NCBI GenBank assembly: GCA_029062895.1
Contig: JAIDPF010000092.1
Location: 1-35,156 of the forward strand
DNA: 35,156 nt
DNA from: Lachnospiraceae bacterium
GTDB lineage: Bacteria > Bacillota > Clostridia > Lachnospirales > Lachnospiraceae
Direction: 5' to 3'
In this document: in pieces, positions 16,502 to 19,063 of the stretch
Position numbering within the stretch: position 1 is the stretch's first letter
Layout of the letters: every line of letters begins with the position of its first letter
The notes under the pieces: generated by a model
Database searches by the model: none
The model's input: the letters and a program-made list of their open reading frames with translations, nothing else
Told to the model about the DNA's origin: nothing
Translations under genes and position numbers: made by a program

Positions 16502-16520
16502 TGATCGCAGGATCATTTTT
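16502..16520 (+). terminator. Short hairpin with T-run after the GT2 gene
   Basis: TGATC (16502-16506), loop GCAG, GATCA (16511-16515), then TTTTT. It lies 15 bases after the GT2 stop and overlaps the stop codon of the convergent reverse transcriptase. The stem is only 5 bp, so strength is doubtful. Confidence 0.4.
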
Positions 16521-17727
16521 CTGTAGCGGATTTCTTATAATATTCATTTACCAGACTGCGGTATCCCCATTTCTTCATCATATCATAGGTGATCCGATAG
16601 TTTCCCTTATAATGTCTGCCTGTGATGCAGTAACGGATATATTCCTGCATATATTGATCGATCACTTTTAAGCGTCGGTCTGTGGTCAGGTTCGGAAAGA
16701 ACCATTTATTCCAGCTAAATTCTTTGTCGTCGGGGCAGCCATACAGCTTATGGTTCATGGAATTGATAAAGCCGATTGCAGCTTTTTCGCTGTCCAAACC
16801 CTTCTTACGTTGCCAGCGGCGGAGACTGTCGGCTTTTCTTCGGATCCGGGCCTTCATTCGATATAATGTATGGTCGGAAAGGTCAACACTGCCGTTATCA
16901 AAGCGGAATCCGAGAAATTCAAAAGGTTCACCCGGAAGAGAAATAGCGACCTTGTCTTGATTGACAGATAGATGAAGATCATGGAGCATTTGAAACAGCG
17001 CATGTTTGCGTTCCTGAAGTTCAGCCTCTGTTGCGGCGAAGATCAGGATATCGTCTGAATATCGAAAGTATGGGATCTCTTTTTCCAAAAAATATTGGTC
17101 GATCTCCCGGAGGTGAATATTGGCAAGAAAAGGAGAAATAGGCACTCCCGCCATAGCACCATGGGCTTCATGAATGATCCTGCCGCGTTCTACCACCCGG
17201 TCTTCGGAGAGTATCTTTTCAAATAGTTCAAAAAGCATAGCGTCTTGTTCCTTTAGAAAAGAAAGCTGCTCTAAAAGTATTGAAACATCTATGGAGTTAA
17301 AATAATTACTAATATCTGCTTTCAGACAGTACATCTGATCAACATGCGGAATACTGCTGATCTGACGAACTGCATGCATTACCCCATGGCTGCGACGGAA
17401 AGAAAAACAGTTTTTCGCGATATAGGAATCATAGCGAAAAAGCTGAAAAGAAATAAACTTTAAGAAAATGTTTTCCTCTTCCGGAAAGGAATAGACGACT
17501 CTTTTCTTCGTGCTTCCATCTTTATTGATAATACGTTTTTCTGGAAGATGGATAGGGAAATTGTGCTGTTTCCATGCCTCGCACAGCGGCAGGTAATTTT
17601 TCCCCATTATAAAATCTTTGATTGATTGCTCCTCTGATCTGGTTAAATGCTGTTTTTCAATCTTATAAAATAAAAAATCCAGCCAGTTCTTTTCTTCTAA
17701 GGCCAGAGCGTAAATGGAATTTTGCAT
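16513..17727 (-). CDS. Stand-alone reverse transcriptase (RNA-directed DNA polymerase), class unassigned
   Basis: 404 residues. A longer frame reaches 17868, but that extension translates the upstream RNA element. The ATG at 17727 has AGGAG five bases upstream and is preferred. RT palm motifs are clear: motif 3 LKADISNYFNSID (D138), motif 4 GVPISPFLANIHL, and motif 5 YFRYSDDILIFA (Y223-S-D225-D226), then QDKV and FLGFRF. The C-terminal 100 residues are basic and helical (RMKARIRRKADSLRRW), ending in GYRSLVNEYY, probably a thumb or RNA-binding part. There is no endonuclease, primase, nitrilase or protease fusion. The retron NAxxH motif is not seen, and motif 4 has SP where DGR enzymes have SQ. 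A structured RNA with its own promoter lies directly upstream. The most likely roles are phage defence or another RNA-templated function. Catalytic ability is well supported; class and role are not. Confidence 0.88.
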   Translation of the reverse strand: MQNSIYALALEEKNWLDFLFYKIEKQHLTRSEEQSIKDFIMGKNYLPLCEAWKQHNFPIHLPEKRIINKDGSTKKRVVYSFPEEENIFLKFISFQLFRYDSYIAKNCFSFRRSHGVMHAVRQISSIPHVDQMYCLKADISNYFNSIDVSILLEQLSFLKEQDAMLFELFEKILSEDRVVERGRIIHEAHGAMAGVPISPFLANIHLREIDQYFLEKEIPYFRYSDDILIFAATEAELQERKHALFQMLHDLHLSVNQDKVAISLPGEPFEFLGFRFDNGSVDLSDHTLYRMKARIRRKADSLRRWQRKKGLDSEKAAIGFINSMNHKLYGCPDDKEFSWNKWFFPNLTTDRRLKVIDQYMQEYIRYCITGRHYKGNYRITYDMMKKWGYRSLVNEYYKKSATEK

Positions 17728-17804
17728 GAGGTCTCCTGTTATGTTGTAATAAAATTTAAGTAATGTTACCAATCTGCAAAATAAATATGCAAGTGTAGAA
17801 AATA

Positions 17805-17842
17805 TAAAAAAGAAAGAGAAAAGGCTTTGAAGCAATAAAGCC
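17805..17842 (-). terminator. Intrinsic terminator of the RT-associated RNA
   Basis: On the minus strand GGCTTT (reverse of 17837-17842) pairs with AAAGCC (17823-17828), followed by TTTTCTCTTTCTTTTTT down to 17806. An alternative overlapping hairpin, GCAATAAGC with GCTTTATTGC, could compete with it. The U-rich tract is also the right arm of the long-range 17-bp repeat, so terminator and long-range stem share bases. Confidence 0.65.
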
Positions 17843-17953
17843 ATGCTTATTGCCACTGGACTGAACATACTCTGATCGCCCGCAAAATATTACCAAGGAG
17901 TATGCTTCATCCTTCACGGGCGCAGCCGAAGCTGCATTCCTCTTTCTTTTTTA
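17805..17953 (-). repeat. 17-bp inverted repeats bounding the RNA core
   Basis: The left plus-strand arm TAAAAAAGAAAGAGAAA (17805-17821) and the right arm TTCCTCTTTCTTTTTTA (17937-17953) are complementary over 17 positions. Fourteen consecutive bases match perfectly, then one position forms G-U in RNA. They enclose 115 bases. The placement resembles the closing repeats of retron msr-msd RNAs, although the RT is not retron-like. Confidence 0.75.
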
Positions 17954-18000
17954 ACTAAGAAAACTACAAAGTACGTCATAGCGGCAAGCGCCGCATACCT
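17806..18000 (-). ncRNA. Structured non-coding RNA upstream of the reverse transcriptase
   Basis: A predicted transcript of about 195 nt, starting about 5-7 bases past an extended -10 promoter and ending at a T-rich terminator 80 bases before the RT start. In RNA order it can form: a hairpin GCGGC-GCUU-GCCGC (17994-17981); a long-range stem, UAAAAAAGAAAGAGGAA (17953-17937) with its complement (17821-17805), 17 bp with one G-U; GCAGC-UUCG-GCUGC (17935-17922); CGCCCG (17922-17917) with CGGGCG (17882-17877); within that, AAGGA (17914-17910) with UCCUU (17899-17895). The loop GAAGCAUAC can pair with downstream GUAUGUUC (17870-17863), a pseudoknot. The base pairs are read directly; that the RNA is made and serves the RT as partner or template is inferred. 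A 6S-like or unrelated small RNA is a less likely alternative. Confidence 0.65.
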
Positions 18001-18004
18001 ATAT

Positions 18005-18033
18005 ATTTTAACATATATTGACATATTTTGCAA
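18005..18033 (-). promoter_or_regulatory. Promoter for the RT-associated RNA
   Basis: On the minus strand TTGCAA (18033-18028) lies 17 bases from TAAAAT (18010-18005), which is preceded by TG to give an extended -10 (TGTTAAAAT). The expected start is near 18000-17998. No convincing second promoter lies between the RNA terminator and the RT, so the RT probably depends on read-through from here or from the sucrose operon. Confidence 0.7.
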
Positions 18034-18106: not shown

Positions 18107-19063
18107 TTAGAGTTCTTCCAGTGAAGGATATGAGTCAATTGCTCCGGCAGATTGCACGCTGATTGCACAAAATTTATTTGCAAATTCCAACAGTGAATTC
18201 ATATCAGCTTCCGTCAGAGATTCTATATTGTCCGGAGAAAATCCCAGTTCCCGAAGCTTCCACAAAAACGAGCCGATAAACCCATCGCCTGCGCCGGTGG
18301 TATCTACAGCTTTCACTTTTATTGCTGGTGAAAACGTATGATTGTTCCGGGTAAAAGAATAAGCTCCCTTGCTTCCGCAGGTAAATATTACAAGTTTGAC
18401 GCCTTTTTCGAAAAACATGGGAAGCGCATTCTCTATCGTATCCGTGCCAGTAATAAATTCCAGTTCTTCATCGGATATTTTTAAGATATCTGTCATACCT
18501 ACAAATTTCCAAATCACGTTTTTTAATTCAACCTTATCATCCCAAAGTTGAAAACGCAGATTGGGATCAAAACTAATGACCGCATTTTTCTTTCGTGCAG
18601 CTTCAACAGCTTTAATATGCGCCTCGCGCATGGGAAAATCTCCCAGAGATACGCTGCAAAAATGCAAAGCAAATGCATTGTCAAACCATTCCTGTTTGAT
18701 CTGATCTTCATTTAAAAGCATATCAGCAGACGGCTTACGGTAAAAAGAAAATGTTCTGTTCCCATCCTTTGCAAGGCTCACAAACGCCAGCGCGGTATTG
18801 GCTTTTTCCGTATAACTGATGCAGGATGTATCTATACCAGCCTTGGCAAGGGTTCTTGTTATTTTATCTCCAAAGGGATCCGCGCCAAGCTGAGTAATAA
18901 GCCTTGATTTTCCGCCAAGTTTGGAAAATGCGCCGCAGACATTTGCCGGAGCGCCGCCTACAGCGGGAAGGAAACTATTCACTTCGTAAAATTCGCAGCC
19001 GCTTTTATCGGGTATAAAATCAATTAAAGCCTCTCCAATTGCAATCAGGGTATCATTCGCCAT
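18107..19063 (-). CDS. scrK: Fructokinase (PfkB family)
   Basis: Phosphorylates fructose released from sucrose-6-phosphate to fructose-6-phosphate, using ATP. The 318-residue protein has the PfkB fold: N-terminal GGAPANVCGAFSKLGG (signature 1 and sugar site), a lid region, and signature 2 DTTGAGDGFIGSF with the catalytic-base Asp. Its start overlaps the end of the hydrolase gene by 11 bases, and AAAGGAATGG inside that gene serves as ribosome site, so the two are coupled. It is the last gene of the sucrose operon. No clear terminator follows, so some read-through into the RT-associated region is possible. The symbol rests on operon context and family; it could phosphorylate related sugars. Confidence 0.92.
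   Translation of the reverse strand: MANDTLIAIGEALIDFIPDKSGCEFYEVNSFLPAVGGAPANVCGAFSKLGGKSRLITQLGADPFGDKITRTLAKAGIDTSCISYTEKANTALAFVSLAKDGNRTFSFYRKPSADMLLNEDQIKQEWFDNAFALHFCSVSLGDFPMREAHIKAVEAARKKNAVISFDPNLRFQLWDDKVELKNVIWKFVGMTDILKISDEELEFITGTDTIENALPMFFEKGVKLVIFTCGSKGAYSFTRNNHTFSPAIKVKAVDTTGAGDGFIGSFLWKLRELGFSPDNIESLTEADMNSLLEFANKFCAISVQSAGAIDSYPSLEEL

Follow-up and report, generated by a model that had tools for sequence, protein, structure and literature searches.

UG26, which we take to be a member of DRT class 2, is listed in PADLOC as a candidate DRT under the profile RT_UG26, and Rfam lists an RNA family, RT-5, as RF03026. The UG classes of reverse transcriptases (RTs) are reportedly those of Mestre et al. 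2022, and the RT-N series of RNA motifs is said to go back to Weinberg et al. 2017. As described in PMC12632851, the UG17 RT is now called DRT10 and forms a unit with a SLATT gene and an ncRNA, in which the template lies directly 3' of a stable stem-loop and an A-B-A' repeat lets the cDNA reset in a telomerase-like manner. DRT9 consists of an RT and an ncRNA only, and PMC12489045 assigns to its RT a pair of C-terminal tyrosines. The locus analyzed here lies in a stretch of 35,156 nucleotides from a Lachnospiraceae bacterium (contig JAIDPF010000092.1; hereafter, the window) and joins a UG26 RT and an RT-5 RNA into one unit, with evidence at the level of individual base pairs. Since the RT matches RT_UG26 and the RNA matches RF03026, both halves of the unit were already catalogued, and the first-pass annotation of this DNA was wrong to call the system undescribed. 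The likeness to the two entries consists of a near full-length match to the RT profile and a full-length match to the RNA model; the window departs from the PADLOC system in the lack of an RTasCOG2852 partner gene, and from the Rfam drawing in an outer stem and a pseudoknot that go beyond it.

The RT is encoded on the minus strand at 16513..17727 (404 aa; stop codon at 16513-16515). The frame given by the ORF finder is longer (451 aa) and starts within the RNA, at an ATG at 17868; the part with homologues starts from the ATG at 17727. The RT_UG26 profile matches the protein with an E-value of 2.3e-157 and 521.8 bits, the next-best class among the PADLOC profiles being UG17 with 119.2 bits, and an RVT_1 domain is matched as well. 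The group II maturase model reaches 115.4 bits against a cut-off of 300, which speaks for a UG26 RT and not a maturase, and the retron St85 model reaches 58.7 bits against a cut-off of 235. The catalytic residues D138, D225 and D226 are invariant across 49 aligned homologues, and the motifs YSDD (residue 223) and GVPISP (residue 194) are present. NAxxH is a motif of retron RTs and has no match in the window RT; an SQ form in motif 4 is a feature of DGR RTs, and motif 4 reads GVPISP here, not the SQ form. The RT had been described as intact on the basis of these residues and motifs, and that description holds. With dN/dS values of 0.05-0.15 (two methods) among the RTs of the window and of its relatives L003, L004 and L005, the RT is under purifying selection. 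A retron identity was considered and rejected on account of the missing NAxxH motif.

An AlphaFold2 model of the RT (49-row alignment; pLDDT 93.8) finds its best structural match in group II intron RTs (TM 0.77), with G2L4 (0.72) and DRT9 (0.65, a moderate similarity) next, and the fold alone cannot separate these RT classes, which the sequence profile does. The C-terminus is rich in tyrosine, with Y381 invariant, Y389 conserved at 90% and Y396 at 80% (51 rows), and in the aligned homologues the last 20 residues hold no invariant tyrosine. Protein priming therefore has no clear support, and UG26 RTs differ in this respect from DRT9 and the C-terminal tyrosine pair reported in PMC12489045.

In the direction of minus-strand transcription, the RT is preceded by the RT-5 RNA (~17803-17953), and the RNA by a pfkB gene (18107-19063). 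The core of the RNA, at 17819-17925, matches RF03026 from end to end (E 1.9e-11, 61.7 bits against a gathering cut-off of 45.7) and is the sole Rfam match in the window by cmscan; genome-wide, RT-5 is likewise matched once, and the RT search (E 0.001) returned the window's own gene only. The whole element, with its closing outer stem, is placed at 17803..17953 on the minus strand from the Rfam core, the fold and covariation, with ends that we infer. The minus-strand region 17803-17957 folds with a minimum free energy (MFE) of -53.9 kcal/mol (z -4.6), a stability equalled by none of 200 shuffles. In the MFE fold the outer stem pairs 17937..17953 with 17805..17821 over 17 bp, its 3' arm ending in U's, and encloses a GCAGC-UUCG-GCUGC hairpin at 17922..17935, of which the two pairs conserved in homologues covary. 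A pseudoknot of 6 bp joins 17916..17921 to 17878..17883, and the central stem, P3, joins 17898..17904 to 17866..17872 through seven pairs. A terminal hairpin at 17831..17854, placed from the Rfam structure and a per-locus parse, is the proposed template boundary. The stability of the fold, its long outer stem and its UUCG hairpin thus bear out the folded upstream RNA first noticed in the sequence, and the main stems and the pseudoknot, the latter then put forward as a possibility, are strengthened by covariation in homologues.

The covariation alignment comprised 45 RNAs and was counted over 43 rows, the near-copies L003 and L005 being omitted. In a scan made without any structure the central stem came out on top; the small stem, the pseudoknot and the outer stem were recovered too, among a number of column pairs that are non-canonical. 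The central stem is canonical in 38-43 of 42-43 rows, with double-sided changes in 10-24 rows at six of its seven pairs, the seventh being invariant. The pseudoknot is canonical in 42-43 of 43 rows, and each of its six pairs has rows changed on both sides (1-12 rows); five pairs stand above swapped controls and one does not (P 0.378). For the outer stem, canonical in 27-37 of 42-43 rows, seven pairs were tested, of which five were reached by at most 1 in 1000 swaps, one gave 0.023 and one was non-significant (P 0.146). An isolated pair (columns 78/138) is canonical in 43/43 rows, with 16 double-sided changes. The RNA that goes with UG26 RTs is hence conserved, contains a pseudoknot and covaries. 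The outer stem lies outside RF03026, so that the element probably extends beyond the Rfam model, and the structure line of RF03026 does not draw the 6-bp pseudoknot.

The association of the two halves was followed through related genomes. The UG26 search gave matches in 37 of 397 family genomes at E 1e-60, at 39 places in all, and in 19 of 391 genomes of the class at E 1e-40, three of the latter matches (L060-L062) being group II introns, with group II RNA adjoining and without RT-5. Three near relatives were added from genome contigs, for a total of 56 UG26 loci, the window included. RT-5 lies above the Rfam cut-off in 45 of them, and sub-threshold matches lie upstream of the RT in four more (L023, L057, L033 and L036). 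The remaining seven are two contig ends (L004, L014), one locus with no match (L048) and four divergent RTs (L041, L042, L043 and L059). Conversely, in a sample of 398 genomes of the phylum RT-5 occurs in two, the window's own (G000) and G222, and both carry UG26. Homologues thus keep the upstream RNA. The first-pass reading of an RT with a cognate upstream RNA, unlike a retron or a group II intron and plausibly anti-phage, withstood the checks set for it on RNA retention, on covarying pairs and on placement of the RT among maturases. Individual loci depart from the usual layout. In L046 (2694-4021; L089), RT-5 lies ~1.2 kb upstream of the RT with an opposite-strand gene between them, and in a relative, L047 (L090), RNA and RT are adjacent; in L048 (L091), the UG26 RT has a different gene directly before it and no RT-5 within 2.6 kb upstream.

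A third component is frequent in this group. Clustering of neighbouring genes yielded one recurrent small gene, with 26 members, on the same strand and close upstream of the RNA. The profile RTasCOG2852, which belongs to the DRT set of PADLOC, matches 18 of these 26 (best E 3.5e-63); no Pfam family lies above its cut-off in the nine members scanned, and nothing convincing was returned by NCBIfam and PHROGs. COG2852 is, we assume, a Vsr-like endonuclease, and in the partner the conservation of nuclease-type active-site residues is uneven by eye. Profile searches were applied to 55 loci, of which L014 and L023 have too little upstream sequence and the four divergent RT loci, all without partner, were set apart; the gene is found in 31 of the 49 testable loci, in one of which (L075) it sits between the RNA and the RT. 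Hence, the two-component layout first proposed is the rarer one among the testable loci of the family, and the accompanying statement that no effector gene is present applies to the window, where the neighbours are pfkB and a glycosyltransferase, and fails for most testable relatives. Eight further loci of the genus include four with the partner (L131, L133, L134 and L135), two without it (L129 and L130, both of the window's clade) and two with too little upstream sequence (L128 and L132). In a separate sample of the family, the partner is present in 16 of 200 genomes; 15 of these carry UG26, and the sixteenth (G516) gives a weak match and is outside the UG26 list. No partner was found in the window (within 2.6 kb upstream), L003 or L005, nor in the genomes G000 and G401 at E 1e-4; the contig of L004 ends before the gene could be seen. 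On a rapidly built RT tree, the distribution of the partner takes 10-13 changes to explain, the number varying with the labels included; starred branches demand 6-7 or more of these changes, and RT and RNA therefore persist without the partner in several clades.

The genomic surroundings suggest that the unit has been inherited locally. The window's neighbours are shared by L003 and L005, and in three genomes of the same genus (G1165, G1169 and G1172, which may be the same organisms as L003-L005) the RT lies beside the same glycosyltransferase. UG26 RTs are present in 10 of 18 genomes of the genus, and their neighbourhoods differ across the family, a pattern of local vertical descent within a patchy distribution. 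A tblastn search with the UG26 RT matched 1296 plasmid and 36 phage records, all below 60% identity; among the matches listed (50 plasmid, 30 phage), identity is at most 30%, most of the plasmid ones carry a group II RT annotation, and none could be recognised as a copy of UG26. A phage- or plasmid-borne UG26 was rejected on these grounds. Among viral contigs, a single-sequence scan returned nothing and an alignment scan returned one relative at 27%. This result is at odds with PMC10504277, which reports UG26 among the RTs of deep-sea viral contigs. As a separate observation, tRNA genes lie near the UG26 units of L011, L018, L035, L039, L052 and L059, and are possibly integration sites.

What the unit makes, and what for, can be approached by analogy. 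Each of the 45 parsed RNAs has an unpaired stretch of 6-15 nt, typically ~10, that separates the terminal hairpin from the outer-stem 3' arm. In the window, the per-locus parse places it at 17821..17830 on the minus strand (UCAAAGCCUU), its last base also ending the outer-stem arm in the MFE fold, and we infer that it is a candidate cDNA template. When 16-nt segments were taken every 4 nt, the segment over this loop had the top excess of direct repeats (3.28 vs 2.56), and the loop itself has a mean shared length of 3.21 against 2.54 in shuffles (sd 0.12), with at least 4 nt shared in 15 of 42 distinct loops against 4.5 in shuffles; these excesses treat homologues as independent, which they are not. 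An A-B-A' test in which 5' and 3' halves were swapped between loci is non-significant overall (p 0.11-0.57 over twelve segment sizes). Split by loop type, it gives p 0.01-0.05 for the UUUAA subset (20/42) and p 0.10-0.21 for the UUCAA subset (15/42), which includes the window, at three sizes each. In addition, complementarity between the loop and its own hairpin exceeds that of swapped halves (p 0.0003; UUCAA subset p 0.003), and such complementarity fits a switch or a terminator as well as a template. The A-B-A' repeat was rejected as proof of a template, given that the excess did not withstand the swap control in the full set or in the subset of the window and that the loop can pair with its own hairpin; for the same reasons, the template is offered here as a proposal.

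The reading we put forward, to which we assign about an even chance, is that the UG26 RT and the RT-5 RNA form a DRT-kind ribonucleoprotein that makes a cDNA of short repeats and is probably directed against phage. By analogy with DRT2, DRT3, DRT9 and DRT10, the RT would bind the RT-5 RNA. The ~10-nt loop that follows the terminal hairpin and precedes the outer stem would be a short template with the hairpin as its boundary, and would be copied repeatedly, as in DRT10 and telomerase. For the window, the expected product would be a tandem repeat with a 9-nt unit, GGCTTTGAA in one of its rotations, and this DNA would take part in anti-phage immunity. Since RTasCOG2852 was not found there, the window lineage would presumably need only RT and RNA, like DRT2 and DRT9. 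In favour of this reading are the UG26 profile match, with UG17 as runner-up, the upstream RT-5 of most UG26 loci, the covariation, the DRT10-like position and the repeat excess of the loop, the purifying selection and the partner from the DRT set; against it count the swap tests, the pairing of loop and hairpin, the lack of an invariant tyrosine in the last 20 residues, the nearness of the fold to group II RTs, the lack of a recognised copy in the phage, plasmid and viral-contig collections, and the missing partner of the window. In its fullest form the proposal is tentative, with the balance somewhat against it: UG26/RT-5 would be a further telomerase-like bacterial RT, separate from DRT10, in which a hairpin-bounded loop of a pseudoknotted RNA templates short tandem repeats, and the lineage of the window would have lost its partner and now work as RT and RNA alone.

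The likeness to DRT10 lies in the rank of UG17 as next-best class for the RT, in an upstream ncRNA that is closed by a stem and has a short 3' loop following a hairpin, a position that fits the DRT10 template site 3' of a stem-loop, and in the third gene of many relatives. The window differs in having no SLATT gene directly beside the RT, the third gene of its relatives is another protein and is located before the RNA, and the repeats of the window are a prediction; no primer residue was found. No UG17 relatives turned up in 245 genomes of the class at E 1e-60, and the DRT10 RNA was hence compared through the text of PMC12632851. DRT9 shares with the window the layout of RT and ncRNA only; unlike what is described there, the candidate loop of the window is not a poly-U tract.

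Several other explanations bear on the same data. The RNA may be reverse transcribed from another segment, giving a longer retron-like copy or a DRT2-like rolling-circle copy. The overall failure of the swap test is in keeping with this, as is the loop before the 3' arm of the pseudoknot, which is highly variable in sequence and length; that loop, however, apparently holds inserted hairpins in some loci (by eye), as suits a peripheral loop, and the absence of NAxxH and the poor St85 score weigh against it as well. A template elsewhere in the RNA seems to us unlikely. An equally improbable reading is that of a domesticated housekeeping unit, without a role in defence, kept vertically in one clade after loss of the partner. 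It accords with the neighbours common to the window, L003 and L005, with the strong purifying selection on the RT and with the missing partner in the window's genome; yet the patchy occurrence of UG26 in the genus and its differing neighbourhoods across the family suit a defence gene, and the partner is missing from several other clades as well. Finally, descent from a group II intron, with a degenerate maturase and remnants of the intron, would explain why a group II RT is nearest among solved folds, and is extremely improbable: cmscan finds no group II RNA in the window, the maturase model stays far below its cut-off, and L060-L062, which do carry group II RNA, are set apart from the UG26 RTs in the tree by a split with full SH-aLRT support. 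A group II remnant was rejected on these grounds.

The 3' end of the RNA admits yet another interpretation, in which the loop forms one side of a terminator or switch hairpin, the RNA is a scaffold or regulator, and the RT either synthesises DNA without a template or is under the control of the RNA. Within 17823-17854, the pairings GCAAUAA/UUAUUGC and GGCUUU/AAAGCC are mutually exclusive; the MFE fold contains the latter, and the centroid fold and the Rfam structure contain the other hairpin. The excess of own-locus complementarity of the GGCUUU/AAAGCC kind over locus swaps suggests that the region is a bistable element. An intrinsic terminator was named earlier; what corresponds to it is a possible alternative hairpin at 17823-17842, GGCUUU...AAAGCC, with U's after it. 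A terminator or switch in place of a template is favoured by this sequence, by the own-locus complementarity and by the MFE fold, but not by the centroid and Rfam structures, and the pairing is apparently weak or absent in many RNAs of the UUUAA type (by eye); we regard it as quite unlikely, more so than a template elsewhere in the RNA. At the other end, the extended -10 promoter proposed at 18033-18005 (TTGCAA-17-TAAAAT with TG) is unsupported, with one match against 1.9 in shuffles and a position ~50 nt upstream of the RNA. Directly before the outer stem, TATAAT is found with 6/6 letters in 11 of 43 loci (1.8 expected) and with at least five letters in 24 of 43 (15.9 expected); the window's own match has 4/6 letters only.

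In PubMed Central, outside which most subscription papers lie, we found no functional study of a UG26 or RT-5 system among the papers listed, no papers combining COG2852 or "RT-5 RNA" with reverse transcriptase, and no DRT11-DRT15 naming this system, an apparent DRT match in PMC13275509 being a footnote mark. The term UG26 is absent from the main texts of the 2025 DRT10 preprint, the DRT3 preprint (PMC13174585) and the RT-classification paper PMC8934634. The analysis names a specific stretch, 17821-17830, as a testable template candidate. If the repeat model, in which this loop is copied over and over, were true, telomerase-like synthesis would extend to a Clostridia RT class with a pseudoknotted RNA, and the partnerless lineages would offer a minimal two-part version for study.

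The divergent UG26-like RTs present a different picture. Those of L041 (239-6468), L042 (1107-6946) and L043 (745-6319), which have neither RT-5 nor the partner, adjoin genes that are most like NHLP/NHLM bacteriocin-export ABC transporters (below NCBIfam cut-offs), of the ABC1 type in all three and of the ABC2 type in L042 and L043. In L041 the RT forms the C-terminal portion of a 1271-aa protein whose N-terminal half is radical SAM. These RTs look like members of peptide-modification clusters, and as such they merit a study of their own.
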